Shown here piece after piece: positions 6,577 through 60,691 of a stretch of DNA of 64,000 nucleotides. The stretch is from a virus: IMG/VR virus record IMGVR_UViG_3300003702_000496, positions 19,253 through 83,252 of that record; one strand, written 5' to 3'. Position 1 is the first letter of the stretch; each line of letters begins with the position of its first letter. Position numbers and translations under genes: made by a program. Under the pieces are notes generated by a model. It saw nothing but the letters and a program-made list of their open reading frames with translations, had not been told where the DNA came from and ran no database searches.

Positions 6577-6608
6577 TTTCTTTACCCCTCCCTAGGGAGC
6601 CTCCCTAT

Positions 6609-18941: not shown

Positions 18942-19622
18942 TTAGACGATCCACTCGGCCATATTTTTAAATTCTTCGCTTATACCCGAAGCATTTCTCT
19001 TTTCCATTCCCAAGATCAACTGCCACGGATTCATTCCAAGATTCCCTGCAAGAATAATTCTCTCATGGTCACATTGTTGTTCTGATACTTGATGTCTTAT
19101 CCAGCCAGGAAACAATACCATGTTTCCTTTTATCGGAGCAATCTGATATGATGCATCCTCAAAGATTAACGGCGCACAGTTTTCACAACATTCTACATTA
19201 TATACCCAACTCCATATTTGAGGCCAATGCTCATGTAACTTGGTATAATTTCCTTTGGTATATATCGCGCCCCAACAATCATATGGCATTAACGGAACTC
19301 CCTGTCTTGGAGAATTGTCATACGCCAATTCTATTGCCATACGACACACTTCCATAAAATCTGAATTAGTTTCATGCATATACCAGCCAGTCATACTTGC
19401 TTGCACATTAGTTGAAGATTTTTGAACATCACCAATATCCCTACATGTTTGTACAAGTCTTTTCTGAAGTTCTTCGTTTGAACAATCTTTTTGTACAACA
19501 GGATACTTTACACGAAAAGATTGAGAGTGTGGATTGGTTGTTAGTTGTCTAAGTTTCTTTTCCTCTAATATATTTTCTTTTTCTATATTAGATACAAGTG
19601 CTTTTAGATGGTTCCTACTCAT
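18942..19622 (-). CDS. Putative 2OG-Fe(II) oxygenase-like protein, type A (copy 2)
   Basis: About 226 residues from the ATG at 19622, which forms an ATGA overlap with the preceding gene; a longer frame upstream exists but is not needed. The core is LHEHWPQIWSWVYNVECCENCAPLIF, here split as HEHWPQ, C-x2-C and PLIF, then FPGWIRHQV and CDHERIILAGNL. The HxH...H...R pattern suits cupin-fold 2OG-Fe(II) dioxygenases of the putative TIGR02466-like type. The CxxC is shared with its paralogue at 20172 and unusual for the family. Probably early/middle; substrate unknown. Confidence 0.6.
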   Translation of the reverse strand: MSRNHLKALVSNIEKENILEEKKLRQLTTNPHSQSFRVKYPVVQKDCSNEELQKRLVQTCRDIGDVQKSSTNVQASMTGWYMHETNSDFMEVCRMAIELAYDNSPRQGVPLMPYDCWGAIYTKGNYTKLHEHWPQIWSWVYNVECCENCAPLIFEDASYQIAPIKGNMVLFPGWIRHQVSEQQCDHERIILAGNLGMNPWQLILGMEKRNASGISEEFKNMAEWIV

Positions 19623-20182
19623 GGTAATGATGGTTCCTCTGGATACCAATACCATCCTGTAATAATATATTTTGGATGAGTGTGTATAGGATTACCTCTA
19701 TGTTGATACATCCATGCAGCAGGAAATATACAACCCATTCCTTCCTTTGGTTGTATGCGTATCTTCTCATATAGAAATTCTGTTTCACCTTCACCTTTCG
19801 GAATATCATTCAGATAGATAGTCCATACCAGAGCTCTGGCACAGTTTTCCCAATGAGTTATTTCCGCATGGAAATTGTGAAACCCCCCACCCATAGGATT
19901 TGTACGTTGTATCTTAATTTCGGGTGTAAGTAAAATTTTTGCTCCTCTATATGCACAAGGAAACTCTTCCAAGTATTCCCGTAACATGTCCATAGTAGCT
20001 TTGTGTACTGGTTCATATAATTCAGAATTTTCTGGAAGCCATATCTGCTTATCCTTACGACTGACACGATTGGGTTCTTCAATTCTTACATTCTTTGGAG
20101 AACTTTCAAACCAGTCTATAAGAGAGTCACATAGGTCAAAAGAAAGTGCATTATCAAATCCTCTTACAAAATCACGAATCAT
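19619..20182 (-). CDS. 2OG-Fe(II) oxygenase, prolyl-4-hydroxylase-like, type B (copy 2)
   Basis: 187 residues. P4H-like layout: FHNFHAEITHWENCARALVW (HxE iron ligands), TIYLNDIPKGEGETEF, FPAAWMYQHRGNPI (distal His) and a basic residue in HPKYIITGWYWY for 2-oxoglutarate. Paralogue of 20786-21487. Its start lies inside the preceding type-A gene by 11 bases and its stop overlaps the next start (ATGA), so the four oxygenase genes form one operon. Confidence 0.75.
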   Translation of the reverse strand: MIRDFVRGFDNALSFDLCDSLIDWFESSPKNVRIEEPNRVSRKDKQIWLPENSELYEPVHKATMDMLREYLEEFPCAYRGAKILLTPEIKIQRTNPMGGGFHNFHAEITHWENCARALVWTIYLNDIPKGEGETEFLYEKIRIQPKEGMGCIFPAAWMYQHRGNPIHTHPKYIITGWYWYPEEPSLP

Positions 20183-20789
20183 TATTCATATCAATATTTA
20201 AATTGCCCGCAACCATAATACGATCATGATCACAATCATGCGTAGGAACTTCATGCATAATCCATGCAGGGAAAACAATTAACTGAAAAGGTTTAGGCAT
20301 CACTTTGAGTTTCTTCTCGCTTGTAGGAAATATTAATGGAGAACAGAACTCACATGCGTATACACAATAGGTATACGACCAGAGAGATGGCCAATGATTA
20401 TGTACTTTTGCTTCTTGCCATTTCTGGTATATAAGACCCCAACTCTCTTTGATATATAATGGGACTTCTTTTTTTTCGCCGGTCGTATCGGTACGCGTAG
20501 CTACAGGACAAGCTTGTGCAATCTTAATTGCTTCATTTCCAACCACTTCAAAAGATTTATATAACTCATGCATATCCCATCGAGTCATAAGACACTTAGC
20601 CGCAGTACGAGTTTGTAAATGATCGCCTGCATCTCTTATGTCTCTTTCCAAATATTTGTTAAGAGACTTCAACAACGGCCGTTCTTTTTCGTTTATCGTT
20701 TTTATTTTTACTGGATACTTATCCGTAAAATTTGGCCAGGGCCCTCGTTCATTATTTTTTCCATATACTAAATCACTTAATGCACTCAT
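20172..20789 (-). CDS. Putative 2OG-Fe(II) oxygenase-like protein, type A (copy 1)
   Basis: 205 residues; paralogue of 18942-19622, sharing HNHWPSLWSYTY, a CxxC (ACEFCSPLIF), FPAWIMHEV and CDHDRIMVAGNL. Iron ligands would be HxH plus the distal His of MHEV, with Arg of DRI as 2-oxoglutarate ligand, as in TIGR02466-type oxygenases. Its ATG overlaps the stop of the type-B gene at 20786 (ATGA). Confidence 0.6.
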   Translation of the reverse strand: MSALSDLVYGKNNERGPWPNFTDKYPVKIKTINEKERPLLKSLNKYLERDIRDAGDHLQTRTAAKCLMTRWDMHELYKSFEVVGNEAIKIAQACPVATRTDTTGEKKEVPLYIKESWGLIYQKWQEAKVHNHWPSLWSYTYCVYACEFCSPLIFPTSEKKLKVMPKPFQLIVFPAWIMHEVPTHDCDHDRIMVAGNLNIDMNNDS

Positions 20790-21487
20790 ATAACAATCTC
20801 TTGTATGTTGGTTTCATCTGGGTGATGACCATCAAATTTAGGTTCCTTTCCTTTAGGAAGAAAATAAAACCAGCCTGTTGCAATATATTTAAGGCCTTCG
20901 TTTGGTGTAACTCCTTTATGTGGATGTGTCCAACCTGCTGGCCAGATCACCGTTCTACCAGTTTTAGCCCTTACTAGTTTTTCTTGATAAGGAAACCATG
21001 TGCCACACCTCGCGTTATTCAAATAGATCATCCATGCAAGCATACGATAGGGATACGAACCAGAGTGCTCGTTATGCAATGCAAAGAATCCTTCCTTCTC
21101 GCCATCGTATCGTTGCACATTATAGAAAGGACATAATCTCCACTGACTTGCTTTGTTAATCGTATTCAGATAACCATATTTTTTTGTATAAGATTCCAGT
21201 GCAGAATGTATAAAGTAATAAATTGGATCGTTAATGGAATTGTCTGCGCCGAAGTCAAAAGTTTTAGTCGCACAAACCTTTTGACGATTCTTATTAAAAT
21301 ACGCAAGCCCAGAATCCTTGGAAGCATTATCGTCATAAACAGACTCAAAAAATTGAATTATTCTTTCGCAGTTCTTTCTGCCTGCCTCAACCCAATCTTT
21401 ACGAATTAATATCGGTTGAGAAGAACTTTCTTCAACAACACTTCGCGCAGAGTCAAGATCATATGTTTCAATAAAATCAAAAAACAT
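20786..21487 (-). CDS. 2OG-Fe(II) oxygenase, prolyl-4-hydroxylase-like, type B (copy 1)
   Basis: 233 residues. Iron-site region ALHNEHSGSYPYRMLAWMIY (HxE), then NNARCGTWFPYQEK, IWPAGWTHPHKGV (distal His) and LKYIATGWFYF. Same family as 19619-20182 but longer at both ends. First gene of the four-gene oxygenase run. Confidence 0.72.
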   Translation of the reverse strand: MFFDFIETYDLDSARSVVEESSSQPILIRKDWVEAGRKNCERIIQFFESVYDDNASKDSGLAYFNKNRQKVCATKTFDFGADNSINDPIYYFIHSALESYTKKYGYLNTINKASQWRLCPFYNVQRYDGEKEGFFALHNEHSGSYPYRMLAWMIYLNNARCGTWFPYQEKLVRAKTGRTVIWPAGWTHPHKGVTPNEGLKYIATGWFYFLPKGKEPKFDGHHPDETNIQEIVI

Positions 21488-23326: not shown

Positions 23327-24091
23327 TTAATTTCCATCAAAAAGAACTTGCATTTTATTAATATTTTGTTCAAATATTTTTGTATTTATATTCATACTAA
23401 ATGATCTTCGTTCACCAATACCCTTAAAAGGATATGCTGTATGTCTTAGATTAGCAGGGAACAAATACCAATTACCAACCTTTGGAACAAATCCTATTCC
23501 ATCATTTTCAAAGAACGCTTTCTCATTAGGACCGCTATTATTCAGAATTTCCAAAACTCCGTTTAAGTCAATATGTTTTTTGTAGTTAGATTTAATGCTT
23601 TTTTTATGTTCCTTTGATAAATCGGGAACTTTCAAAAATCCTACACAAGTTAATTCAGAATCTGGGTGGGTGTGGATGGGATTATAATCTCCAGCAAAAG
23701 ATTGTACATACCAAGCAGATATAACATCAACTTGGATTTCATTAATATTTTTCAATGCTTGTTCTTTAGGAATAATGATAAAATTTTGTTCTGGAATATA
23801 AAGTTCATTATAATATCCAGCTATATATCTTTGTACTTGTTTACCAAACCATTGACCCCATTTATTAATAACATCAATCGGAATTTTAAGTTCCTGTTTA
23901 ACTTGACCAACGAGGGTATGTGAAAAATCTTCTGATTTTAATAGTTCTTCATCTTTAATAATATCATCACAACCTTTATTAAGATCAATTACTAATTCTT
24001 TTGGTAATTCAGCATAACCGATTGGCGGACCAAATGGAAAGTATGTTTGTAAAGGATTTCCGAAATCGTGTGGGGGTAAAGGAGTTTTCAT
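23327..24091 (-). CDS. 2OG-Fe(II) oxygenase (TIGR02466-like)
   Basis: 254 residues. C-terminal double-stranded beta-helix: SAWYVQSFAGDYNPIHTHPD, then CVGFLKVP, NWYLFPANLRHTAYPF and GERRSFSMNIN. His residues of the HxH segment, the RHT His and the later Arg fit the iron and 2-oxoglutarate sites. Separate from the tandem oxygenases and more divergent. Substrate unknown. Confidence 0.75.
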   Translation of the reverse strand: MKTPLPPHDFGNPLQTYFPFGPPIGYAELPKELVIDLNKGCDDIIKDEELLKSEDFSHTLVGQVKQELKIPIDVINKWGQWFGKQVQRYIAGYYNELYIPEQNFIIIPKEQALKNINEIQVDVISAWYVQSFAGDYNPIHTHPDSELTCVGFLKVPDLSKEHKKSIKSNYKKHIDLNGVLEILNNSGPNEKAFFENDGIGFVPKVGNWYLFPANLRHTAYPFKGIGERRSFSMNINTKIFEQNINKMQVLFDGN

Positions 24092-30287: not shown

Positions 30288-30711
30288 TATATGTTACTAA
30301 TTGTATTTTAAGAATGACAGAGGAAATTAGTCCCAATAAGGTTGTGCTTAGAGCTGTATATAGTCCTCTACTCATTGATGACAGAACTGCTCGTATGCTT
30401 TCAACATCAGTGAATTGTACTGAATCAAATGTTCCGATTAACATTATCATAAATCCGATAATGGTTCCTATCATACCGAGCGTAAGAACGGCATCAGAAA
30501 TAAACCATTCTACTTCATTATCAAATTGTTTCTTAAAAAATGATTTATAACCAAGTGATAATGTTGTAGCTCCAAATACCATAGTAATTAGATAAGTTAT
30601 CATTGTTGCATCTTTTTCATACAACGGCAATAACCAATCATTTGCATACGAGAAGTATATCAAAACTCCAAGTACACACATTGTTAACCACCAGCGTAGT
30701 GATTTTATCAT
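30271..30711 (-). CDS. MotA/TolQ/ExbB-like proton channel protein
   Basis: 146 residues from MIKSLRWWLTMCVLGVLIYF; start chosen by the GGGAG site and the ATGA overlap with the preceding oxygenase gene (30708-30711). Three to four TM helices; the conserved core is ISDAVLTLGMIGTIIGFMIM, then IRAVLSSMSRGLYTALSTTL and LGLISSVILK, the classical MotA/TolQ/ExbB domain. Together with the next gene it should form a proton-driven membrane motor; the driven partner is unknown. Confidence 0.8.
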   Translation of the reverse strand: MIKSLRWWLTMCVLGVLIYFSYANDWLLPLYEKDATMITYLITMVFGATTLSLGYKSFFKKQFDNEVEWFISDAVLTLGMIGTIIGFMIMLIGTFDSVQFTDVESIRAVLSSMSRGLYTALSTTLLGLISSVILKIQLVTYNASNS

Positions 30712-31415
30712 ATTACTCCCTTTTTCTGACTTAGTATACTTTTTTCTGTTAATTCCGGCCCGCTTTCCAAATTTTCTTTCTGCTCCCACGGCCTTTCATA
30801 TGACGTATTGATATCGGGATTTGTCTCACCGTATATAATTGGCAACGTGTTCCAAAAGATTACGCCTATAGATACGCGATTTCCTTCATATGGTTGTACT
30901 GCATGAGTTACATTCATTGGAAAGGATATCAGTCTATTTACAATTGGCGCTATCGAATCTGTTTCAATCTCCGCCCATGAGAATAATTCCTTCTCATTTA
31001 TTTTTACTCTGGTAACAGGCGGTTTAGTATAGATATTTAGATGTCCTCCAGCTGTAGGTGCTCTCAGATAATATATAAATGTCTTTTCTGGCGGATTGGG
31101 TGGCGTGTAATCTACTCCGCCACTGGTGCAATAAGATACTAAATCACTATGCGGTAAAGGGTCTTTTGGTCTAATGTTCCACCAAGCAGTTGCACCAGAT
31201 ATATCCTGATGCCACTGCACTGCTGTTGCACTAGATATAGAACTATGATCTAATTCATGGTAGAATTTATAGAAAATCTTATGAACCAGATCATGAAATG
31301 CGTTCTCAGGTTTAGCATTTCTTCCTATCCAGTGGACTTCCGAGAATTTCATAGAAGTCGTGCCCAATGCTAGATATAAGGATTCGTCTAAAAAATTGTC
31401 TGTTATTGTTATCAT
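30708..31415 (-). CDS. 2OG-Fe(II) oxygenase-like protein
   Basis: 235 residues from MITITDNFLDESLYLALGT, start at 31415 in an ATGA overlap with the Fe-S carrier gene. VQWHQDISGATAWW and PHSDLV, then GGHLNIYTK, FPMNVTHAVQPYEGNRVSIG give the HxD...H...R motif of 2OG-Fe(II) oxygenases. It sits between the Fe-S carrier and the ExbB-like gene. Confidence 0.7.
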   Translation of the reverse strand: MITITDNFLDESLYLALGTTSMKFSEVHWIGRNAKPENAFHDLVHKIFYKFYHELDHSSISSATAVQWHQDISGATAWWNIRPKDPLPHSDLVSYCTSGGVDYTPPNPPEKTFIYYLRAPTAGGHLNIYTKPPVTRVKINEKELFSWAEIETDSIAPIVNRLISFPMNVTHAVQPYEGNRVSIGVIFWNTLPIIYGETNPDINTSYERPWEQKENLESGPELTEKSILSQKKGVI

Positions 31416-31711
31416 ACACCGAAGCTTTCCCCACAACCACAAGAACTGGTAGAAGTAGGATTTACTACCTTTAGAAAACTACCACCAAGCTCTGTTACAT
31501 AATCTATTTCGCTACCAATAACATACATCTCTGCCATTGGGTCTAGTATCAGTATATCATCAATTAAATAGGGAGTATTGTCTGTTTCTGATGTTGTTCC
31601 CCATATATATTGGAATCCAGCACAACCCCCGCCCTTTACACCAAGAGTTATGTATCCACCGTTGGACACAGTATGCATATATTCCTTTGCACGACTTGTA
31701 AGTTTAATCAT
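31412..31711 (-). CDS. A-type Fe-S cluster carrier (IscA/SufA/ErpA family)
   Basis: 99 residues from MIKLTSRAKEYM. The three ligand cysteines of the family are present: GGCAGFQY and SCGCGESF near the C-terminus. Carries Fe-S clusters from scaffold to target proteins. The window also encodes SufB, SufE, SufT-like and CGFS glutaredoxin, so it may act with them, although it lies 20 kb away. Confidence 0.85.
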   Translation of the reverse strand: MIKLTSRAKEYMHTVSNGGYITLGVKGGGCAGFQYIWGTTSETDNTPYLIDDILILDPMAEMYVIGSEIDYVTELGGSFLKVVNPTSTSSCGCGESFGV

Positions 31712-31719
31712 ATACTTAT

Positions 31720-31854
31720 TTAGGTTAAACGCTTTGCCTTGCGTAATAGATATGCTATAACCGTATCCCAATAGTTTTTAGCCCATTCGGTTTTAGATAC
31801 TTCCCTCGCAGAATATGCTCGATCTATTCTCTCAGTTATTAAGTCTAAGATCAT
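31720..31854 (-). CDS. Small hypothetical protein (44 aa)
   Basis: MILDLITERIDRAYSAREVS, then KTEWAKNYWDTVIAYLLRK. The ATG at 31854 has a perfect GGAGG 6 bases upstream (31857 is an adjacent alternative). It precedes the Fe-S carrier gene. Function unknown. Confidence 0.6.
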   Translation of the reverse strand: MILDLITERIDRAYSAREVSKTEWAKNYWDTVIAYLLRKAKRLT

Positions 31855-33650: not shown

Positions 33651-33935
33651 TTATAATGTACACAAATCATGATAACCTAGTTCGCGAAGAGTGTTATTCC
33701 ACTCTTCCTCTTTTCTCATAAAGGAAAGTTTTTCGTTTCGGTTTCTGCTATACTCACGAAGTTTCTCTTTGTTATTCTCGCGATATTTCTTTGCAGCTGC
33801 AAGAACTTTCTCTTTGTTATTCTCACGCCATTTCTTTGCAGATTCAAGAACTTTCTCTGGATACCTCTCACGGTATCTAATATTAGAAGCGCGCTTTTTC
33901 TCTGCTTTAGTCATAACAACTTCTTCATTTCTCAT
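33651..33935 (-). CDS. Basic repeat protein (YRENNKEK repeats)
   Basis: 94 residues from the ATG at 33935, which overlaps the amidoligase stop as TAATG. Contains repeats of the type (K)YRENNKEK(V/L) (KKWRENNKEKV, KKYRENNKEKL), often found N-terminal to phage HNH or nucleic-acid-binding domains; no nuclease domain follows. Very basic helical protein, likely nucleic-acid-binding. Confidence 0.6.
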   Translation of the reverse strand: MRNEEVVMTKAEKKRASNIRYRERYPEKVLESAKKWRENNKEKVLAAAKKYRENNKEKLREYSRNRNEKLSFMRKEEEWNNTLRELGYHDLCTL

Positions 33936-34684
33936 TACCATGTCCAATCCCGATTACGCCGGCCGGAGCGCCAAGGCTTCTTCTTTAAAGCGTTAATGTT
34001 ACGAGTTAGTTTGTTCTTCTTATCAATGGTATTAGTGGAGGCCTGCAAACTCTCAGCGAAGTGGATAATGGCCATCTTGACTTCCCTATGCCGTTTGTGG
34101 TAGTTCTTTCCACCGACAATACGAAACTCAATCCATCCAGTACCCTTTTTGATATTCAATTTTGACATGTTGATCGAATCGTACTTGTACTTATTATTCA
34201 TCTTGTTCTTGAGTTTGGTAAACACCCTATCCTGAGAATCATTTTTTCTCAGGGTCAGGCCCTTCTTCATAGGTTCAACAAACTCGTTTTGAGTGCGCTT
34301 GAATGCCCTTAACCACTTCTGTTCATCCACAAGTAGAACTAGTTTTGCCTCATCAATCTTCTTGGTTTCACTTTTTCGGGAGAATCCCAGATTGATATGA
34401 AGACCACATGACGCATTTGTTTGAGCGTTCATGAGTTCCATCAAAGTGAACAATTTGTCTATCGCCTTCAAGCCCTTTTTCAAAGACCAAACAGGCGTGA
34501 CAATCTCCACATCTGAATTGTCCCTATTGGTTGTAACAGAAGGATCATCTGTTACAATGAATTTGTCCCGAGTCCTGAAACTGTTGCGGTCAACAATTTC
34601 GGGGAAGATCGCCTTCACTGCACCTCTGATTGTAGAACTAGGGGCATCTACACCCATCTCTAGTTCATAACCAACTTCGATCAT
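33935..34684 (-). CDS. Amidoligase-family enzyme
   Basis: 249 residues. GYELEMGVDAP at the N-terminus, NRDNSDVEIVTPVW (Glu metal ligand region), NASCGLHINLGFSR and GTGWIEFRIVGG match the amidoligase_2/COOH-NH2 ligase group related to glutamine synthetase and ATP-grasp enzymes. These form amide bonds on peptides or cell-wall-like substrates. Own promoter; close to the PanC-like ligase cluster. Confidence 0.72.
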   Translation of the reverse strand: MIEVGYELEMGVDAPSSTIRGAVKAIFPEIVDRNSFRTRDKFIVTDDPSVTTNRDNSDVEIVTPVWSLKKGLKAIDKLFTLMELMNAQTNASCGLHINLGFSRKSETKKIDEAKLVLLVDEQKWLRAFKRTQNEFVEPMKKGLTLRKNDSQDRVFTKLKNKMNNKYKYDSINMSKLNIKKGTGWIEFRIVGGKNYHKRHREVKMAIIHFAESLQASTNTIDKKNKLTRNINALKKKPWRSGRRNRDWTW

Positions 34685-35016: not shown

Positions 35017-35167
35017 TTAAGTCATTGAAATTAAAGACAGAATCGAGGTTTTTTTTCTACTTTTTTTGTGGTTAAGCCATTGATAATAAACAAAACTTTT
35101 TTTATGTCTAAGTCATTGATTCTAAACGATTTTGAAAAAAAAGTTCAAAAATCTTTTAAGTCATTGA
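35017..35167. repeat. Four iteron-like repeats TTAAGTCATTGA
   Basis: Copies at 35017, 35072 (one mismatch), 35108 (first base differs) and 35156, spaced 55, 36 and 48 bp, in an intergenic stretch with long T-runs. The last overlaps the stop region of the PanC-like gene. They could be protein-binding iterons, part of an origin, or a transcription-end region. Confidence 0.6.
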
Positions 35168-36045
35168 TATATAAAGATATTGTCTGTGAGGAAGTCATAG
35201 ACCTCAGAAAATGGGCCTGCGGAAATCATAATTATCGCATCTCTATCAAGGGCATTCAATTCTTCTAAAGTCTCAGCACAACAGATGTCCACATAGCATT
35301 CATCCGATTGTATGTGAGAAGTGATATATCTTTTGATATAGTCTATTGATTCAATCTTAGACCAAGTAGATACTTCCTGTAAGGTTTGATATATGGAGAC
35401 AGCCCTCTGACGGTCAGACTGCGTTAATAGTTTATTACGAGAACTACAAGCAAGACCATCAGAATCCCTTATGATAGGAGCTATGACTACCTTTATGGGA
35501 AGACCTAACTGTTTGATAAGAGATTTTAACCCAAAATTTTGATATGCGTCCTTTTGCCCGACCACAGTTATATCTGGCATTATAACATTAAATACTGGAA
35601 AATATGTTGAAAGAACATACGTCAATCTGGGAGAGATAGTCGCATCAAATGTATCACGATTTCTCCAGAAAGCATATGCTTTCTCACACATTTCTATGGG
35701 AATACTCAAATCATCTATATATAATTGATCCCCTACTCCACCAATATAAAAAAATACATCTACCCCATTTGATTTTGCTAATTCAATATCTCTTGAAAGT
35801 CCATTTGACATCTTTCTATATTGCAATAAACTTTTCGTATATTCTTCAGCGGATTGTTCTTTATAATCTACACTGTGACCAGCACTTAGTACCACTACAT
35901 CAGCATTTTCTTTGGCAATCTTTACCAAGGACATATGACCATCATGTAATTCTGCATCTGTATCTATAGATGCTATAGTTTTACCTTCACGTTTTAATCG
36001 TTGACAATAATCTTTTGTCACTTGAATTGATTCTATAAATTTCAT
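35161..36045 (-). CDS. PanC-like adenylate-forming ligase, copy 3
   Basis: 294 residues. Pantothenate synthetase landmarks: ELHDGHMSLVKIAKENADVV (HxGH nucleotide site), PDITVVGQKDAYQNFGLKSL and IIRDSDGLACSSRN (KMSKS-like ATP loop). The pantoate-binding NPxQF motif of PanC is replaced by GHSVDY, and the usual RPGHFxGV is not present. It probably still adenylates an acid, but a different one. Last of four genes in the operon. Confidence 0.8.
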   Translation of the reverse strand: MKFIESIQVTKDYCQRLKREGKTIASIDTDAELHDGHMSLVKIAKENADVVVLSAGHSVDYKEQSAEEYTKSLLQYRKMSNGLSRDIELAKSNGVDVFFYIGGVGDQLYIDDLSIPIEMCEKAYAFWRNRDTFDATISPRLTYVLSTYFPVFNVIMPDITVVGQKDAYQNFGLKSLIKQLGLPIKVVIAPIIRDSDGLACSSRNKLLTQSDRQRAVSIYQTLQEVSTWSKIESIDYIKRYITSHIQSDECYVDICCAETLEELNALDRDAIIMISAGPFSEVYDFLTDNIFIYQ

Positions 36046-36048
36046 TTC

Positions 36049-36915
36049 TTAATTACTTTGATATTTTAGTATTGGTAATTTCTCAATAGTTACATAACCA
36101 GGCGGCGCCTGTAGAATATGAGGTATTCTGTTTATCGTTTGAGCTGATGTTACCACAGGCGATCCTAATCCATCCACTTTTACGTTAAGGTTTGGTTCGC
36201 CCCTTATTTCCCACGCTTTAAACTCTTCCCCCACAATTAACTTATATTGACCAACCATTCTTATACCTTCTTTAGTCGTAATATCCAACTTTGTACCACT
36301 CGCATCTATAGTTTCTTCTACATCTATAATATTCAGATTTAAAGCTGAAGCTACATTATCCCAAAATGTTACATATATACTTGGACTTTTTGATAATGTA
36401 GCAAATGTTTCGGGCCCGAAATTAGTTGTATCAAAACAACTACGATAGATAATTTCATCTATTCGATGGCAAGCACCTGACATTAATACTCCTAGATGCA
36501 CAATACCAAAATCTTGAGCACCAGTTCCAGTGATTGTGACACCATATTCTTTTGCTATATTATCTAATTCAACAGTTAGTTCGGGGTATAGTCTCCATGA
36601 AAATGAAGAACTTTCTCCTATAGTAGCTACATTCTTTCTTGCTTCTAAACACTGTTTGTAAATTGGAAACATTATAGGCAATTCACTTGCTACTGCAACA
36701 ATAACGATATCTGCTGTCTTTGATAACACCTTTTCTGGGTCATCAGATATAGGTACATTCAAATAATCAATGCCGGACAATAAACCCAAATCTTTACCAA
36801 TTTTAGGGCCGGGTCTATTGATTGCTCCTACAATATCAATACCCCTTTCTTTTAATAATCTTGTAGCCAACATATTCATTTGGCCCACACCATATATTAT
36901 AACTTTTGTTGTCAT
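36049..36915 (-). CDS. DapB-like / 2,4-diaminopentanoate dehydrogenase-like oxidoreductase
   Basis: 288 residues. N-terminal Rossmann fold VIIYGVGQMNMLATRLLKER, then GKDLGLL and DIVIVAVASE; the middle GVTITGTGAQDFG and SCFDTTNFGPETF match 2,4-diaminopentanoate dehydrogenase and dihydrodipicolinate-reductase relatives. Expected to reduce or oxidise an amino or imino acid with NAD(P). It lies between two PanC-like genes, 3 bases from each, indicating a shared pathway. Confidence 0.75.
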   Translation of the reverse strand: MTTKVIIYGVGQMNMLATRLLKERGIDIVGAINRPGPKIGKDLGLLSGIDYLNVPISDDPEKVLSKTADIVIVAVASELPIMFPIYKQCLEARKNVATIGESSSFSWRLYPELTVELDNIAKEYGVTITGTGAQDFGIVHLGVLMSGACHRIDEIIYRSCFDTTNFGPETFATLSKSPSIYVTFWDNVASALNLNIIDVEETIDASGTKLDITTKEGIRMVGQYKLIVGEEFKAWEIRGEPNLNVKVDGLGSPVVTSAQTINRIPHILQAPPGYVTIEKLPILKYQSN

Positions 36916-36918
36916 ATC

Positions 36919-37782
36919 TTACCTCGGTTCTATTATAATGTTATCATAAAGTTCATCCACATCACCAAACCTTACATTAACAACAATCACAAATTTTCTA
37001 TCAATTGAATTCAATTCTTCTAGGGTTTCTGCACAACAGATATCTATGCAATTTACTGTTCCATTATTTCTAGTTATACATTCATTAATGTACATTTTGA
37101 TACGTTGTATTGAAGGATATGCAGGCCAAGCAGATACTTCCTGTAATGTTTCGTTAAGGGAAATAAGATTGTTATAATCATCTTTCGTTAAATCTCTATT
37201 ATGAGAACTAAAAGCCACACCATTAGAATCTCTAACGATAGGAGCTATAATTACCTTTATGGGAAGACTTGATTGTTTGATAAGATATTTAAGGACAACA
37301 ATTTGATGTACATCCTTTTGACCTAATATAGATACATCAGGCAGTATAATATTATACAATTCTTTAGCACCCAACATAAATTTCATATTTACAGGGGGAA
37401 AATAAGGTCTATCTATTATCAACTGATCAATTACAGGAATAGAAACATTTAAAGGAGGAATATCTAAATATAAATCATTCATCGGAGGAAGAAAAAGTAC
37501 ATCTACATTATTTAACTTACATATTTCAATTTCTTTTTCTTTAAAATCTTGTTCATATACTTTTAATTGTGCTTCATATTTTTCAATGGAAGAGTCAAAA
37601 TAATCAACTGTGTGACAAATGCTCAATACTACTGCGTCAACATTTTCTTTAGCAACCTTTACCAAGGACATATGGCCATCATGTAAATCTCCTTCAGTAT
37701 CTATTAATCCAATAGTCTTTCCTATTTGTTTTACTTGTCGAGAATATTCTCGCATTTCTTTAATTGACTCAATAATTTTCAT
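36919..37782 (-). CDS. PanC-like adenylate-forming ligase, copy 2
   Basis: 287 residues. DLHDGHMSLVKVAKENVDAV, LPDVSILGQKDVHQIVVL and IVRDSNGVAFSSHNRDL retain the ATP site (SSHN instead of SSRN). The NPxQF region reads CHTVDYF. Start overlaps the stop of copy 1 as ATGA. Diverged from copies 1 and 3, especially in the middle ~90 residues. Confidence 0.8.
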   Translation of the reverse strand: MKIIESIKEMREYSRQVKQIGKTIGLIDTEGDLHDGHMSLVKVAKENVDAVVLSICHTVDYFDSSIEKYEAQLKVYEQDFKEKEIEICKLNNVDVLFLPPMNDLYLDIPPLNVSIPVIDQLIIDRPYFPPVNMKFMLGAKELYNIILPDVSILGQKDVHQIVVLKYLIKQSSLPIKVIIAPIVRDSNGVAFSSHNRDLTKDDYNNLISLNETLQEVSAWPAYPSIQRIKMYINECITRNNGTVNCIDICCAETLEELNSIDRKFVIVVNVRFGDVDELYDNIIIEPR

Positions 37783-38693
37783 CTAGCATAACCAAGATGC
37801 TTTGGTTCTATTATAATGTTATCATAAAGTTCAATCACGTTACCAAATTGTGTAGAAACTAAAATTACTGCTTTTCTATCAATTGTCTTTAATTCTTCTA
37901 AGGTTTCTGCACAACAGATATCTATGTAATTTACTGTTCCGTCAGAAGCTTCTATGCGTTCATTAATATACATCTTAACACGTTGTATTGAGGGATATTC
38001 AGACCAAGTAGATACTTCCTGTAATGTTTTATAGACAGAAGAAACATTTATAAGTTCTTCTTTATTTAAAGCTGCGTTACGAGAACTTAAAGCTACACCA
38101 TTAGAATCTCTAATGGTAGGAGCAATAATTAATTTAATTGAATAATTCAAATCATCTATAAGAGATTTAAGATAAGAAGTTAATTCATAAACATCTTTTT
38201 CTCCAATTACACTCACATCGGGCGACACAATATTAAATATTTTTAAATTCATGAGCAGGTATAGAGATATAATATCTCCATATCCATTAGCTAAATTTGG
38301 ATTCCAAGCCCTCTTTTTGATAAATCTGTCAACAAGAAGACCAGATAAAGTTATTTTATTTGTCAAATTTGAATATACATCTAACATACTAGGTTGAAAC
38401 AATATATCTACATCATATTTTTCACATGTAGCAAGATCATCTTTTAAAAACTCTGCATGATATTCTGCTATATGTTTTTCGTATCTCTCAGGATGATTTA
38501 AATAATAAAAATAATAAAAAGTATGAAAATTACTCATCACTACTACGTCAACATTTTCTTTGGCAACCTTTACCAAAGACATATGACCATCATGTAAATA
38601 AGATTCTGTAGCAACAGATGCTATAGTTTTACCGTCACGTTTAAGTTGTTGAGAATACTCTCGCATCTCGTCAATTGATTCAATAATTTTCAT
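37779..38693 (-). CDS. PanC-like adenylate-forming ligase, copy 1
   Basis: 304 residues. YLHDGHMSLVKVAKENVDVV, PDVSVIGEKDVYELTSYL and TIRDSNGVALSSRNAAL. NPxQF is replaced by FHTFYYF. Among the three copies this has the most canonical SSRN loop and GEKD. Its ATG overlaps the zinc-ribbon gene stop (ATGA). Confidence 0.8.
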   Translation of the reverse strand: MKIIESIDEMREYSQQLKRDGKTIASVATESYLHDGHMSLVKVAKENVDVVVMSNFHTFYYFYYLNHPERYEKHIAEYHAEFLKDDLATCEKYDVDILFQPSMLDVYSNLTNKITLSGLLVDRFIKKRAWNPNLANGYGDIISLYLLMNLKIFNIVSPDVSVIGEKDVYELTSYLKSLIDDLNYSIKLIIAPTIRDSNGVALSSRNAALNKEELINVSSVYKTLQEVSTWSEYPSIQRVKMYINERIEASDGTVNYIDICCAETLEELKTIDRKAVILVSTQFGNVIELYDNIIIEPKHLGYAR

Positions 38694-38866
38694 TTTTTTA
38701 ATTCCACTTCTGCTTTATGTCCACAATGAGGACAAGTCATTTCTGGCCATTTTTTCCAAACAGCATCTGTAGTTGCCCAACTAGTTGCATAACTCCACCA
38801 ATTCATGCACTTAACACAATTGAAATGAAGTATCAACTCTTTTGTATATGTGTGATTTATACCCAC
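38690..38866 (-). CDS. Zinc-ribbon protein, GTG start
   Basis: 58 residues. Two CxxC pairs, NCVKCMNWWSYAT and MTCPHCGHKAE, form a zinc ribbon common in small T4-like marine phage proteins (WKKWPEMTCPHCGHK). An in-frame TAA is only 4 codons above, so the GTG at 38866 is the only plausible start. The predicted transcription start is ~2 bases before it, suggesting a leaderless message. Confidence 0.7.
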   Translation of the reverse strand: MGINHTYTKELILHFNCVKCMNWWSYATSWATTDAVWKKWPEMTCPHCGHKAEVELKK

Positions 38867-38913: not shown

Positions 38914-39576
38914 TTAACGTCTTTTCTTAGATAACTCCATTGCAATCCAATCCTTGGCTCGCGTATTCTGAACTTTTCTTTTAGCGAGTTTTTGTACACG
39001 TTTGAAAACTTGGGTAAAGATATCCTCTCCAGCATCATTGTTATCTATGATAATCATACCAGCGCCAAAGAAGTTATTAAATTTACCAAGATTTGCTTGT
39101 ACATCTTTCCACGATTTAATTACTTTAGATTCTGGAACACTACGAGGACGTTCTGCATTTCGTTGAAGGGCAACATCAAGAGAGGTGTTCACAAATATCA
39201 TATATGTGTCATATCCCAACTCTTGCAGTTGTCTTGCTTGCATTTGTATCTTATCAAAGTCTCTGCCTGTGCCATCTATGATAAGACCAAGACGCCCCTC
39301 AAGAAAATTTTCTTTTCTTTTTGCAGTAATTTCTTTTGCTCGCGCACGAACAATATCTCTAGGAGCTTCTTGTTCTGAGGGCATCTTGAGAGACAGACCA
39401 GCCTTTTTCAGAAGAGTTTCAAAAGCATCATCTGAATTAACTGATTTAAGTCCCATACCACCAGTGGTGCGTCTGGCAACGTATGATTTACCGCTGCCAG
39501 GCCCACCAGCTAAAAAGAACGCCTTAAATATATTAGGGTCGTAAACCCCCTCTTGCAACTCTCTGAATGTCTTCAT
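38914..39576 (-). CDS. P-loop kinase (zeta-toxin/polynucleotide-kinase-like)
   Basis: 220 residues. Walker A in FKAFFLAGGPGSGKSYVARR, Asp in SVNSDDAFE, and GLIIDGTGRDFDKI (Walker B-like), with lid Arg in ALQRNAERPRSVPES. Found in T4-like marine phages near structural genes; could phosphorylate a nucleotide, nucleic acid end or peptidoglycan precursor. No antitoxin is adjacent. Confidence 0.72.
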   Translation of the reverse strand: MKTFRELQEGVYDPNIFKAFFLAGGPGSGKSYVARRTTGGMGLKSVNSDDAFETLLKKAGLSLKMPSEQEAPRDIVRARAKEITAKRKENFLEGRLGLIIDGTGRDFDKIQMQARQLQELGYDTYMIFVNTSLDVALQRNAERPRSVPESKVIKSWKDVQANLGKFNNFFGAGMIIIDNNDAGEDIFTQVFKRVQKLAKRKVQNTRAKDWIAMELSKKRR

Positions 39577-51528: not shown

Positions 51529-52331
51529 ACTATTTCCAATTCCTTACACAATTCACTTTTTGTTATATGCGTCACACTATCTTCTTCAAACTCTAGAGTA
51601 GAATCAACCAGATAATATTGAGTATCGCCATCTTCAACTCTAAACATCGTTCTCATTTGATTATACCAATTGTCAGGACTAAACCCTTTTGTGTCTGTTG
51701 GCAGATAATTTTTAGTACCTTTATATATGTTATTTAATGGAGCATCGTATGAACTAAGATCAAATCCTAATACATATACATCTTGTGTATTCTGACTTGC
51801 AAGATATAACGCTGTATTTCCTGCTGACCAGCCGGCCGGATAATCAATAGGAATTACATTATCCTCTTCACACACATATGTAATCCAGATTCCGACATCC
51901 TTTTCCATTTTTAATTTCAAATCTTTCATATCAAGATGCGGATTCATCTGAAGAGCAATATCAATTTTTTCTTGAAGTGTTGTAGGGTCTTTACCTGATA
52001 TTACACACTGATTCGTAACTCTCTTACTTTTGTGAATAAATTCTTCTGGAATATTATATCCCATTAACATCATATCTGCAGCTTCAGAAGGAACAACAGA
52101 CCAATTTGCAAAATGACAATTATTAACATCTGCAAACTCTGGATTATATAAACAATAATCAGAGTCATATATTTCTTGTTGCATACCATAATCTACAGCA
52201 ACTAAATTATGAACATAACCATCATCACGATAGATTGCATTACATCCCCAAGTCATAACATCATTTGCCATAATTTGATTTGGTTTAAACCATGTTCTGG
52301 ATTCACCATTGCCAATAACAAGAGCTCTCAT
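51525..52331 (-). CDS. Rossmann-like hypothetical protein (DUF115/MptE-like?)
   Basis: 268 residues from MRALVIGNGESRTWFK at 52331, in an ATGA overlap with thyX. Nucleotide-binding-type opening ALVIGNGESR, then TWGCNAIYRDD, a middle helical domain, and PAGWSAGNTALYLASQNTQD with VYVLGFDLSSYD. The layout recalls DUF115-like glycosyltransferase/pyrophosphokinase-fold proteins. Substrate unknown. Confidence 0.55.
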   Translation of the reverse strand: MRALVIGNGESRTWFKPNQIMANDVMTWGCNAIYRDDGYVHNLVAVDYGMQQEIYDSDYCLYNPEFADVNNCHFANWSVVPSEAADMMLMGYNIPEEFIHKSKRVTNQCVISGKDPTTLQEKIDIALQMNPHLDMKDLKLKMEKDVGIWITYVCEEDNVIPIDYPAGWSAGNTALYLASQNTQDVYVLGFDLSSYDAPLNNIYKGTKNYLPTDTKGFSPDNWYNQMRTMFRVEDGDTQYYLVDSTLEFEEDSVTHITKSELCKELEIV

Positions 52332-52966
52332 GTTCTCAAAGCTTTCCAACTTACAGGGAATAATTCTTCTGCAAGTTCATCAATTTGATTTGCAATAAAT
52401 TGGGTTTCAAGTTGTGCATCTGGTTTGCATCGCAAATTACATACGCGAGAAAATGCATACAAAGTTCCACTCCAATACCATTCTGTCATCATAGCCTGCG
52501 GTAATACCATACGAGCTTGTTCTGGACAAACACCTCGACGTAGTAAATATTCATATGTCCATTTTGCTCTTCGCAAAGTAGATTGATATTCATCTATCAA
52601 TCTACCGCGAGGATTTATGTTTATGGATTCGTCAGAAGAACCTTGTTTTTTATTCTCAGCAGAACCACGCCATGTATCAGGAATATAAAATTCTGGTTCA
52701 TTGTCAACATACCTACGACTAACTTCGTTCCAAGATAATCCTACCTGATGTTTTACAAGTTGACGAGCAACAAAAACAGGAGCCCGAACATGAAACTGCA
52801 TACTGCAATGAGCAAAAGGACTCCAATGGTCGTGTTTTGCCAAGTACCTGATGAGTTTTTCATCTTGTTCTTCCTTAAATTCTTCGTGTTTAGTTGCAAA
52901 TGAAACTCGAGCTGCATTTACCACCGACAAATCACTTCCCATGTGATCTATCAATTTTACTTTCAT
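52328..52966 (-). CDS. thyX: Flavin-dependent thymidylate synthase ThyX
   Basis: 212 residues. ThyX core: FVARQLVKHQVGLSWNEVSR then RY is the place of the RHRxxSxNxxSxR signature; here the first Arg-His-Arg reads K-H-Q, as in several phage enzymes. Also HDHWSPFAHCSMQF and a C-terminal MVLPQAMMTEWYWSGTLYAF. Makes dTMP from dUMP with FAD and methylene-folate. Start overlaps the SufT-like stop (ATGA). Confidence 0.93.
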   Translation of the reverse strand: MKVKLIDHMGSDLSVVNAARVSFATKHEEFKEEQDEKLIRYLAKHDHWSPFAHCSMQFHVRAPVFVARQLVKHQVGLSWNEVSRRYVDNEPEFYIPDTWRGSAENKKQGSSDESININPRGRLIDEYQSTLRRAKWTYEYLLRRGVCPEQARMVLPQAMMTEWYWSGTLYAFSRVCNLRCKPDAQLETQFIANQIDELAEELFPVSWKALRT

Positions 52967-53298
52967 ATTAATCCTATTTCAAGCTGTGCAGTTTCAGACA
53001 TACTTTCTTGTGTCCACGGAGGATCAAAAGTAACATCTACTTCACACCCAACAATACCTTCAACATTTAATACAGCATCTCTTACCCATATGGGCAACTC
53101 TTCAGCGACAGGACACCACGCACTAGTCAGTGTCATAAGAATCTTGCAAGTTTTCCCCGTTGATTTTTTCAAAGGATTCCAAGTTGGAAATGCATCTTCA
53201 AATGATATATCATATATTAATCCCAACTCATAAATGTCCACAGGCATTTCTGGGTCATATACTGTTTTGAGTTGTTCTATAACTTTATTTTTTAACAT
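52963..53298 (-). CDS. MIP18/SufT-like Fe-S assembly protein (DUF59)
   Basis: 111 residues. VYDPEMPVDIYELGLIYDIS, LMTLTSAWCPVAEELP and VEGIVGCEVDVTFDPPWTQE match the MIP18/PaaD/SufT family, with the CPVAEE cysteine typical of SufT-type members. These proteins help mature Fe-S proteins. Encoded a few genes from SufE and SufB. Confidence 0.85.
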   Translation of the reverse strand: MLKNKVIEQLKTVYDPEMPVDIYELGLIYDISFEDAFPTWNPLKKSTGKTCKILMTLTSAWCPVAEELPIWVRDAVLNVEGIVGCEVDVTFDPPWTQESMSETAQLEIGLI

Positions 53299-53304
53299 AT
53301 TATT

Positions 53305-53380
53305 TGGTGCCGAAGGGAAGATTCAAACTCCCGACCTGTTGATTACAAATCAACTGTTCTATCAACTGAACTACTTCGGC
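53305..53380 (-). tRNA. tRNA-Thr (anticodon TGT)
   Basis: Cloverleaf on the minus strand: acceptor GCCGAAG/CTTCGGC, D-arm AGTTCAGTTGATAGAAC, anticodon stem GTTGA.../TCAAC around loop TTTGTAA, T-arm TCGGGAGTTTGAATCTTCCC-like, encoded CCA. Reads ACA/ACG-type Thr codons. Preceded by a TATAAATA box at 53390-53397 and by a coding gene whose 3' end overlaps it. Confidence 0.9.
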
Positions 53381-53594
53381 CATTATGTTTATTTATATTA
53401 TATTTTCGATTTTGTGGACGATAACCTTTTGGCCACATTGGTTGCCGAGTTGCGAGTTTTTTAACTCTATCAGTCAATTCTGAATTAGACTTTTCTAACT
53501 CAGCGCAATCATACTCAAGTTCTTTGACTCGAGCTTGTAGTTCTAAATTTTCCATTTTAGAAAATCCTTCTTCTCTTTGTTGTGTATTGTCCAT
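53343..53594 (-). CDS. Small coiled-coil protein overlapping the tRNA
   Basis: 83 residues. Residues 10-48 form a coiled coil (KMENLELQARVKELEYDCAE, LEKSNSELTDRVKKL). GGAGT precedes the ATG and a perfect promoter lies 34 bases upstream. The last 13 codons lie inside the 5' half of the tRNA-Thr gene, so transcript processing would truncate its message. Function unknown. Confidence 0.65.
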   Translation of the reverse strand: MDNTQQREEGFSKMENLELQARVKELEYDCAELEKSNSELTDRVKKLATRQPMWPKGYRPQNRKYNINKHNGRSSSVDRTVDL

Positions 53595-53627
53595 TAAATG
53601 GACTCCTTTATCAAGTTCAATAATTGT

Positions 53628-53656
53628 ATTATATACATATTTTTATCAATTGTCAA
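53628..53656 (-). promoter_or_regulatory. Perfect consensus sigma70 promoter
   Basis: TTGACA (53651-53656), 17-bp spacer, TATAAT (53628-53633), minus strand; transcribes the coiled-coil gene, tRNA-Thr, SufT-like and thyX. Confidence 0.85.
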
Positions 53657-54105
53657 GTACCTTCTTCAAATTTACTATTAAATTCATGTGGATAGGGTTT
53701 AGCGCCAGATAGTTTTTTGATGTGGTCAATCATCGCCATCATTCCTACTTGACGGCGAGAGGTAAGACCTACTCCCAATCCCAAATTATGCACTGCCTGA
53801 TGTTTTATCTCTTTTATTTCTTTCTGAGTATGACCACTCATAGCTTCTGTAATAATAGTTACTAACCCCTTGACAATAGCCGCATTACTGTCTCCCGAAT
53901 AATAATAACGATTGTCTTCTTTATTTTGAAGTATCCAAACTTTAGCAAGACATCCAGACATTTCATTTTTTATTATTCTTTCGGATTCGTTAAATTCGGC
54001 CGCGTTTCTACCAATTTCAATTAAATATTGAAATTGTGCCATTTCTCCATCCAGATCAAGTAGAGCTGTTAAATTTTCTGCATAATCATTTAGTGCTATT
54101 ATCAT
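53653..54105 (-). CDS. sufE: SufE-family sulfur acceptor
   Basis: 150 residues. Conserved NEMSGCLAKVWILQ with the sulfur-accepting Cys, YYYSGDSNAAIVKGLVTIIT, then LGLGVGLTSRRQVGMMAMID. SufE takes persulfide from SufS and passes it to SufB. SufS and SufC/D are not in this window. AAGGA lies 5 bases before the ATG. Confidence 0.88.
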   Translation of the reverse strand: MIIALNDYAENLTALLDLDGEMAQFQYLIEIGRNAAEFNESERIIKNEMSGCLAKVWILQNKEDNRYYYSGDSNAAIVKGLVTIITEAMSGHTQKEIKEIKHQAVHNLGLGVGLTSRRQVGMMAMIDHIKKLSGAKPYPHEFNSKFEEGT

Positions 54106-54259
54106 GTTCCTTAATCCATTTCTCCAACTCTTTAACGGAGAAATATAATCCTGCTGGCCATGTCATTGGCTTCATCTTTCTTACTGTTAAATCTGTTTGC
54201 CACGCATTCATTTTATCGTATAAAAATTGTGATAAACTCTCCTCATAATTATTGTTCAT
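54086..54259 (-). CDS. Small hypothetical protein (57 aa)
   Basis: Starts MNNNYEESLSQFLYDKMNAW and contains RKMKPMTWPAGLYFSVKELE. Its ATG overlaps the glutaredoxin stop (ATGA) and its 3' end overlaps the sufE start. Lies in the Fe-S operon. Function unknown. Confidence 0.62.
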   Translation of the reverse strand: MNNNYEESLSQFLYDKMNAWQTDLTVRKMKPMTWPAGLYFSVKELEKWIKEHDNSTK

Positions 54260-54540
54260 CTTTTAGGCACCATGAATGGGTAAATTTTTGAAAATATTTC
54301 TATACGTTCAAGAATTTCCGATATTTCCATATTTTTTAATGTAGAATATCCTCCAGACAGGAATAATTTACCATTATAATAAATTTGTGGAACGGTTTTA
54401 TGTCCTTCGGATTTCATAAAATATAAAGCAGAAGAATCATCATCAATATTGATTTCTTCATACTCTATGTTGTTATCTATAAGATAATTCTTAGCCATGT
54501 TACAATATCCACACCAATGTTTTGTATATATTATTAACAT
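54256..54540 (-). CDS. Dithiol glutaredoxin (CGYC)
   Basis: 94 residues. Thioredoxin fold with active site WCGYC (residues 9-13), cis-Pro in KTVPQIYYNGKLF and GGYSTLK glutathione-binding turn. Likely reduces ribonucleotide reductase or other disulfides; also plausible in Fe-S metabolism given neighbours. Confidence 0.88.
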   Translation of the reverse strand: MLIIYTKHWCGYCNMAKNYLIDNNIEYEEINIDDDSSALYFMKSEGHKTVPQIYYNGKLFLSGGYSTLKNMEISEILERIEIFSKIYPFMVPKR

Positions 54541-54565
54541 TATACTCTACTTTTCTAAAATCTTC

Positions 54566-54742
54566 TCATGAATTATCATCTTTACTGTTTAAGAAGTTCC
54601 TTTTGCCAAAAATATTGTCCCAACCTTTACGGTAAGCTGATGTACGGATACTAGAAAAATATCCGTAATGTACATCCTTTGAAGAAATCGTCTGTTTTTG
54701 TGATTTCCCCTCGTTGGATTTGTCTGATTTTTTTATTTTCAT
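54566..54742 (-). CDS. Small hypothetical protein (58 aa)
   Basis: MKIKKSDKSNEGKSQKQTIS, then DVHYGYFSSIRTSAYRKGWD. Basic N-terminus and a Tyr/Arg-rich C-terminal part. Coupled to sufB by a TAATG overlap at 54742. Function unknown. Confidence 0.58.
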   Translation of the reverse strand: MKIKKSDKSNEGKSQKQTISSKDVHYGYFSSIRTSAYRKGWDNIFGKRNFLNSKDDNS

Positions 54743-56179
54743 TATCCTACAGCACCTTCCATTGAAACCTCTAACAATTTATTTGCTTCGACTGCAAATT
54801 CCATTGGTAGTTTTAAGAATACATCCTTACAAAATCCAGTTACAATAAGATTAATAGCATCTCGTTCACTTATACCTCGTTGGTTGCAATAAAATAACTG
54901 ATCTTCGCTTACTTTTGTTGTTGTCGCTTCATGTTCCACAGTCGCTGTATTATTTTTACACTCTATGTAAGGAATAGTATGAGCACCACACTTATCTCCT
55001 AACAACAATGAATCACATTGGGTATAATTTTTTGCATTATTAGCTCCTTTACCAATTTTTATCAATCCTCTATAAGTATTATTACCATGTCCTGCCGACA
55101 CACCTTTGGAAATAACAGTCGATTTAGTTTTCTTTCCTAAATGATACATTTTAGTACCCGTGTCTGCTTGTTGATAATTACCAGTAAATGCTACAGAATA
55201 AAATTCTCCCACGCTTTCATCTCCTTGCAATATACAAGATGGATATTTCCAAGTAATAGCACTTCCTGTTTCAACTTGTGTCCAAGTAATTTTACTTCGA
55301 TATCCCGCACATTTACCTCGTTTAGTGACAAAATTGTAAATACCGCCCTTACCTTCTTTATTGCCAGGATACCAATTTTGAACAGTAGAATATTTTATTT
55401 CAGCATTATCCAAGGCAACTAATTCAACAACAGCAGCGTGAAGTTGATTCTCATCTCTCATGGGAGCAGTACAACCTTCCAAATAAGAGACATACGAACC
55501 TTCATCTGCAATTATTAATGTTCTCTCAAACTGTCCTGTATTTTCACTATTAATTCTGAAATAAGTACTTAATTCCATAGGACATTTTGTATTTTTAGGT
55601 ATGTAAGCAAAACTACCGTCACTAAAAACAGCACTGTTTAAAGCTGCAAAATAATTATCTCTTTGAGGAACTACGCTACCAAGATACTTCTTCACTAATT
55701 CTGGATATTTAGTCACCGCATCGCTAAAGCTGCAAAACAGGATGCCCATTTCTTCTAACTTTGCAGCGAATGTAGTGCCTACGCTGACGCTATCAAATAC
55801 TGCATCTACGGCCACATTCAATAGCTTCTCTCGTTCTCGTAAAGGAACTCCTAATTTTTCAAAATCATCTAAAATTTCTTGTGGTACTTCATCAATATTA
55901 TTGTATTTCTTTTTGGGGCGAGAAAAATAAATAATATCCTGATAGTTTATTTCTGGATATGTTATTTTAGGCCAATGTTTAGGTTCTTCCATAACGAGCC
56001 ATTGTTGATAAGCTTTCAGTCGCCAATCTAACAACCAACTAGGTTCATTCTTTTCTTCACTTATTTTTATGATAACTTCTTCACTTAGACCCGCTTCAAA
56101 TTGTTCTGTTTCAACATCTGTCGTGAAACCATATTTATAGGACTTCTTCTGTTGCCTCTATTGTCTTAATGTTTATCAT
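54742..56179 (-). pseudogene. sufB: SufB scaffold protein gene with an N-terminal frameshift
   Basis: The main frame encodes ~430 residues of Suf[91 protein letters not shown] and [20 protein letters not shown], all expected for the Fe-S scaffold. The N-terminus continues upstream ([31 protein letters not shown]) but has no start in that frame. The ATG at 56179 ([14 protein letters not shown], stop at 56135) is one base out of phase. Removing one C from GTCC at ~56141 would restore a normal SufB. Either a real frameshift, programmed recoding or a sequence error. Confidence 0.85.
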
Positions 56180-60660: not shown

Positions 60661-60662
60661 TA

Positions 60663-60691
60663 TTTATACCATATTAAACCAGTTTTGTCAA
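60663..60691 (-). promoter_or_regulatory. sigma70-type promoter of the tmRNA
   Basis: TTGACA (60686-60691), 17-bp spacer, TATAAA (60663-60668), minus strand, ending just before the acceptor piece; the -35 overlaps the exonuclease 3' end. Confidence 0.82.

Follow-up and report, generated by a model that had tools for sequence, protein, structure and literature searches.

The operon and its genes

The window analyzed here, 64,000 nucleotides corresponding to positions 19253-83252 of the 83,252-base virus record IMGVR_UViG_3300003702_000496, carries an operon of three paralogous genes for ligases resembling pantothenate synthetase (PanC), designated P1, P2 and P3, together with one gene for an NAD(P)-dependent dehydrogenase (DH). 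An earlier note, made from the letters alone, had placed an operon of three divergent PanC-like genes and a DapB-like dehydrogenase at 35161-38866. All four open reading frames (ORFs) are found there, co-directional on the minus strand (Table 1), although the last part of that interval belongs to an additional mini-ORF. Transcription runs in the order P1-P2-DH-P3, with spacings of -4, +3 and +3 base pairs (bp). Each of the three ligases matches the Pfam family Pantoate_ligase at E 4e-46 to 5e-38, which excludes chance resemblance to PanC; P1 is 54% identical to P2 and 44% identical to P3. The mini-ORF begins with GTG (an internal ATG would give 38 amino acids), its stop overlaps the P1 start codon by 4 bp, and its zinc-binding matches are weak and under cut-off (PF23903 E 8.5e-4).

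Table 1. Positions of the operon genes and of other features in the window.
Feature	Position	Strand	Evidence or remark
P1, PanC-like ligase, 304 aa	37779-38693	-	PF02569 E 4.1e-46; first gene of the operon
P2, PanC-like ligase, 287 aa	36919-37782	-	PF02569 E 9.1e-44; overlaps P1 by 4 bp
DH, NAD(P)-dependent dehydrogenase, 288 aa	36049-36915	-	NF040740 E 4e-34; PF01113, PF19328
P3, PanC-like ligase, 294 aa	35161-36045	-	PF02569 E 5.2e-38
Mini-ORF, 58 aa	38690-38866	-	One CPHC motif (Cys-x2-Cys); role in operon uncertain
Amidoligase_2 protein, putative amide-bond former	33935-34684	-	PF12224 E 1.2e-10; downstream of operon
P-loop kinase	38914-39576		
ThyX	52328-52966		
Six 2OG-Fe(II) oxygenases, four consecutive	18942-21487; 23327-24091; 30708-31415	-	
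Tryptophan 2,3-dioxygenase homologue, 173 aa	26514-27035	-	Best stretch ~1/3 of family profile; possibly truncated
Iron-sulphur assembly set	52963-55992; 31412-31771	-	SufB, SufE, FeS_assembly_P protein, A-type carrier
Leu/Glu/Phe/Val-type amino acid dehydrogenase	56185-57146	-	Two overlapping frames, 56185-56955 and 56940-57146
SbmA/BacA-family membrane protein	57684-58712	-	E 7e-114
Permuted tmRNA (two-piece, alphaproteobacterial type)	60319-60695	-	RF01849 138 bits; tag ANDNEAFEDYALAA

An intact adenylation site and a replaced acid site

The phage ligases share with PanC (EC 6.3.2.1, TIGR00018) the length, the two-domain layout and the HxGH, GxKD, SS(R)N and C-terminal DN motifs. An alignment of 46 cellular PanCs with 30 phage copies (coordinates of copy L024) shows that all 30 phage copies keep H34, H37, G147, K149, D150, P174, R177, S186 and the C-terminal D275-N276, and the HxGH, GxKD, SS and DN motifs are retained in essentially all of them. 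Unlike in PanC, P28, M30, N58, P59, Q61, most F62, D67, P72 and the R121-V128 block are replaced in the phage copies, and NPxQF, the TMG methionine and RPGHF are gone. The retention of the ATP motifs together with the loss of NPxQF and RPGHF, which the earlier note had described for the three paralogues, thus extends to essentially the whole set. Specifically, when positions are converted to Mycobacterium tuberculosis PanC numbering by a constant offset from L024, the equivalents of H44, H47, K160, D161 and S197 are each kept in 30/30 copies, that of R198 in 26/30 and that of Q164 in 25/30. The pantoate-binding N69 and Q72 are lost; H57 and Y61 stand in their places, as His in 23/30 and Tyr in 22/30 copies. 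In the M. tuberculosis enzyme, alanine at H44, H47, N69, Q72 or K160 lowers activity ~1000-fold, and N69A and Q72A barely alter ATP affinity (PMC5772511). The kept and lost residues, read with these mutant effects, therefore indicate an intact ATP half and a rebuilt acid half. The catalytic loop also varies among the phage copies, with SSHN (as in P2, in place of SSRN), SSSN and SSRL. Against TIGR00018, the three window proteins score 122, 140.5 and 159.7 bits, below the equivalog cut-off of 212.75.

Structure prediction, a check proposed in the earlier note, agrees with these assignments. The AlphaFold2 model of P1 (mean predicted local distance difference test, pLDDT, 86.6; predicted template modelling score, pTM, 0.85) has the PanC fold, and its top PDB matches are pantothenate synthetases without exception, with template modelling (TM) scores of up to 0.87. 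The region of weakest confidence, residues ~111-140, corresponds to the variable acid segment.

A phage clade of tandem arrays

Phylogenetic analysis placed 32 phage copies in one clade (support 100/100, stem 0.95), separate from 31 cellular PanCs. The copies therefore lie outside all sampled cellular PanC rather than within it, and no pantothenate cluster is present; both outcomes are in keeping with the earlier note. Paralogue groups cross phage boundaries: P1 groups with L004:8865, P2 with L006:6001 (6001-6930), and P3 with three tandem copies of L006 (clade support 100/100). Contigs L016 and L017 were considered as array relatives and rejected, their single-copy genes representing a separate acquisition within proteobacterial PanC in the tree. 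In these two contigs (L016 3500-6759, L017 3956-6873) the PanC-like gene lies behind a tail fibre, has likewise lost NPxQF, and neighbors a fatty-acid-desaturase-like gene and Asp/Asn beta-hydroxylase-like genes. A far more distant PanC-like protein (59 bits) occurs at 8001-8885 of L073, a 119-kb viral contig.

Arrays of at least two copies (2-7) were found in 11 IMG/VR records, and further records hold single copies, in several cases truncated by a contig edge; two record pairs are near-duplicates. The largest array, of seven copies, is in record G002. Array genes mostly overlap by 4 bp, and tight spacing is maintained in every array. An assembly artefact was rejected, given that the array recurs across independent metagenome records with conserved spacing. 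The contig scans employed subgroup profiles, the 27-copy alignment being too diverse, and the final two scans added no contigs. Other phages, too, have tandem paralogues around an amine-type dehydrogenase. Since the relatives all come from metagenome contigs, most of them short, absences carry little weight.

Elsewhere, the ligases have few counterparts. No isolate phage in INPHARED carries an array ligase, its matches being only 25-34% identical and either named PanC or unannotated, and the same database gave zero matches for DH. PHROGs holds no family fitting the ligases (none below E 0.0017), BFVD yielded nothing with the PanC fold up to E 0.001, and literature searches for PanC-like non-pantothenate ligases yielded nothing relevant, all in agreement with the earlier note's remark that no such phage system was known. 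On the cellular side, 754 genomes from two bacterial classes were scanned and 520 had a PanC match; among the matches listed, one genome has a second, unlinked copy and the others a single one. With the A2 profile, the best cellular scores in the 754 genomes were 164 and 170 bits, versus 235-358 for full-length held-out phage copies, and in a genome-contig scan of cellular sequences identity did not exceed 32-33%. On these two grounds we rejected recent capture from a host, no cellular sequence lying near the phage clade.

Divergent acid segments and exchanged domains

Judged from the aligned sequences, paralogues diverge most in the acid-pocket segment. In the window, the paralogues share 62-75% of the HxGH segment and 20-31% of the acid segment. 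For paralogues within a genome in general, the values are 41-86% for the HxGH segment, mostly 12-38% for the acid segment and mostly 27-67% for the C-domain, the recent L006 duplicates being closer. The ratio of nonsynonymous to synonymous substitution rates (dN/dS), for which the Nei-Gojobori values are approximate, is <1 throughout and, in most pairs, peaks in the pocket, where it reaches up to 0.85; for P1/P2 it is 0.21 in the N part and 0.85 in the pocket.

Trees of residues 1-188 and 189-276 conflict. The N part of P1 groups with L004:8865, and its C-domain with P2 and L006:6001; similarly, L067:1030 combines the N part of L012:2470 with the C-domain of L011:2563. The synonymous divergence (dS) of L067:1030 supports the latter swap, running at 0.26-0.54 and then 1.05 against L012, and saturated and then 0.35 against L011. 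Approximately unbiased (AU) tests, with groups drawn from the other domain's tree, rejected the alternatives every time (p 1.7e-9 to 1.2e-4). The significant conflict of the N- and C-domain trees means that acid-recognition modules have been exchanged between C-domains.

The embedded dehydrogenase

The dehydrogenase of the operon stands nearer to 2,4-diaminopentanoate and native amine dehydrogenases than to DapB, as which it had first been described. It scores 118.5 bits against NF040740 (2,4-diaminopentanoate dehydrogenase), below the equivalog cut-off of 400, and is therefore a relative of the family rather than the ornithine-pathway enzyme. PF01113 matches at E 4e-8, and PF19328 at 25.5 bits (cut-off 23.3) with its C-terminal part alone. 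Among solved native amine dehydrogenases, DH matches PDB 6iaq (E 3e-45) and 7qzl (E 5e-28), and its E101 aligns with 7qzl E112, which is the catalytic Glu E111 of MATOUAmDH2 (offset 1, checked at Tyr176); family members that lack this Glu showed no activity towards the substrates tested (PMC11164908). DH thus shares the N-terminal NAD(P) domain, the end of the C-terminal domain and the catalytic Glu with MATOUAmDH2, CfusAmDH and 6iaq. It differs from them in its length (288 versus ~340 residues), in a catalytic domain ~44 middle residues shorter than in solved relatives, giving a compact C-terminal domain variant, and in its place within a ligase array. All 3/3 complete myovirus arrays contain DH, which is conserved in L004 and L006 and evolves far more slowly than the ligases (86% identity to L004, where P1 has 62%). 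A relative at E 1e-8 was found in 1/399 Pseudomonadota genomes, with no cellular operon context readable.

Genomic context

The phage of the window is a T4-like marine virus of bacteria. Its proteins include baseplate gp6, gp59 and PhoH, and by gp6 its closest isolates are Methylophilales phage Melnitz (51%) and the Pelagibacter phages Mosig and HTVC008M (49-50%), whose hosts are OM43 and SAR11. A two-piece transfer-messenger RNA (tmRNA), as listed for the window in Table 1, has been described in the related phage Melnitz (PMC9004378). A scan for the T4 late-promoter motif was uninformative (16 sites observed versus 9.7 expected).

In myovirus relatives, spanin-like genes and ThyX flank the array, and ATP-grasp-like and radical SAM proteins are encoded nearby. 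Two of these relatives, G002 and G003, encode an amino- and ADP-sugar module with a DegT aminotransferase, a GFO/IDH oxidoreductase, a NeuD-type acetyltransferase, an RfaE-I kinase, an RpiB/RfaE-II fusion and glycosyltransferases. In two related phages such genes, with aldolases among them, make up a long amino-sugar/ADP-activated-sugar operon (L084 169-9767, L086 8596-17278). In podovirus-type contigs, the order is GroES, tail fibre, Gly-rich collagen-like protein, DUF6065-like protein, 2-oxoglutarate (2OG)-Fe(II) oxygenase, a ~107-aa protein, 2-3 ligases, scaffold and capsid. The isolates HTVC023P and DSL-LC04 lack this cassette and have the scaffold homologue directly after GroES; the fibre/2OG/ligase cassette therefore looks inserted. 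In L011 and L067, 2OG oxygenases are interleaved with the ligases or follow them. The DUF6065-like protein beside the fibres (phrog_7084; L015 4314-5003 and relatives) resembles proteins of haloarchaeal tailed viruses at 43-44% identity, and some of its relatives belong to cyanophages.

In the window itself, an Amidoligase_2 gene close to the operon encodes a possible partner of it. The further features of Table 1 include an amino acid dehydrogenase divided between two frames, which may reflect a frameshift, sequencing error or decay; a CmcI-like protein is also encoded.

Discussion

The interpretation that we tentatively favor, at somewhat less than even confidence, is that P1-P3 are diversifying PanC-fold acyl-adenylate amide ligases which no longer use pantoate and probably decorate the virion or host surface. 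Each paralogue would activate a different carboxylic acid as an acyl-AMP and hand it to an amine, and the co-translated ligases would act on a single acceptor, either in parallel or as hetero-oligomers. The embedded DH may supply that amine, either by reductively aminating a keto compound or by keto/amine interconversion. More speculatively, the amides could decorate the virion or the surface of the infected cell, and array turnover and acid-module swapping could vary the decoration. Insofar as the acids are left unspecified, the ligase reading stands well above the rest. Surface decoration is no more than moderately likely, in view of the podovirus tail-fibre cassette and the glycan genes of relatives; the cassette gives circumstantial backing to the surface modification suggested in the earlier note, and its other two suggestions, nucleotide modification and cofactor mimicry, found no positive evidence in this analysis. 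Parallel ligases for different acids would fit the divergence pattern at least as well as successive pathway steps, because the paralogues have the same ATP half, a most divergent acid pocket, swapped C-domains and 2-7 copies per array. The fuller proposal, that the phage diversifies a chemical decoration through an expandable, co-translated array of PanC-derived ligases, with acid modules exchanged between lineage-specific C-domains and a DH-made amine as the myovirus acceptor, is possible, if rather doubtful as a whole.

Several observations weigh against this interpretation. The AlphaFold model of DH is too poor for a fold search (pLDDT 51), and with the shortened middle of the protein this means that amine dehydrogenase activity is not assured. 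DH was not seen in the podovirus-type arrays, whose contigs are fragments, and the myovirus arrays do not adjoin tail-fibre genes. In the ligases, the H57/Y61 replacement is common rather than universal, and the alignment of the divergent acid segment is uncertain.

The alternative that survives best, although we consider it unlikely, is a small-molecule pathway in which the same enzyme logic would produce a soluble amide during infection, such as a cofactor mimic, an inhibitor, or an anti-defence or exclusion metabolite. The window does hold a set reminiscent of secondary metabolism, comprising Amidoligase_2, the six 2OG-Fe(II) oxygenases, the CmcI-like protein, the Leu/Glu-type dehydrogenase and SbmA/BacA. 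However, this set lies entirely outside the conserved array, which no transporter or carrier accompanies, and the podovirus arrays occur in the fibre cassette and not among metabolic genes. A specific form of surface decoration, in which the amino sugars of a phage-directed glycan would be N-acylated with different acids, appears less probable still. The amino-/ADP-sugar module of G002 and G003 speaks for it, but in G002 that module and the array are ~13 kb apart, and neither the 83-kb record of the present phage nor the podovirus contigs showed it. Classical N-acylation, for its part, relies on acyl-CoA or ATP-grasp/ANL enzymes.

Two further explanations are both very improbable. An amide-linked hypermodified base in phage DNA would draw on chemistry with precedent, as phage DNA hypermodification employs amino-acid or amine additions, and the genome has a P-loop kinase and ThyX; yet zeta-type kinases and ThyX are known to be common across marine T4-like phages, the window proteins checked included no hydroxymethylpyrimidine or base-modifying module, and the podovirus arrays sit within a structural module. 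Loss of ligase activity, leaving nucleotide-binding or structural proteins or a drifting array, might explain the loop variants and the pocket dN/dS values, but would be hard to reconcile with ATP residues invariant in 30/30 copies across deep paralogues, dN/dS <1 everywhere and co-translational spacing kept in all arrays. True pantothenate synthesis, as an auxiliary gene set boosting vitamin B5 and coenzyme A (CoA), has on its side the Pantoate_ligase/panC labels of Pfam and NCBIfam and the pantothenate/CoA genes of marine viral surveys, read there as CoA boosting (PMC8940887), but is effectively excluded: PanC identity was rejected on residues (N69, Q72, TMG and RPGHF absent), score and phylogeny, no panB, panD or panE was seen among the window proteins checked, and three to seven divergent copies would be senseless for one reaction.

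Among known systems, PanC itself is the closest in fold, and differs in having the pantoate-binding residues and in lacking the tandem arrays with domain swapping. The phage amidoligase/ATP-grasp systems are similar in being phage-borne amide-bond formers. Amidoligase and ATP-grasp enzymes proceed by acyl-phosphate activation, versus the acyl-adenylate of the PanC type; their fold is unrelated to that of PanC, and no PanC-type tandem arrays have been described for them. According to PMC10580990, cell-wall modification by phage amidoligases has been proposed as a barrier to superinfection; for the systems of Iyer et al. 2009, cited there, the proposed roles are cell-wall modification or the making of metabolites.

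If the favored interpretation of P1-P3 as surface-decorating amide ligases is correct, the PanC scaffold would have a use not described before, and phages related to those of dominant ocean bacteria would possess a biochemical system that diversifies by a mechanism of its own, through copy number and module swapping. There is a warning here for virome surveys as well: the same automated names given to marine-virome pantothenate/CoA genes would apply to the phage ligases, which on residue evidence are very unlikely to boost B5 or CoA, and 'pantothenate' genes may accordingly be misread in that sense. Because the family comprises natural sets of related ligases that differ in their acid pockets, acid specificity in this enzyme class becomes directly testable.

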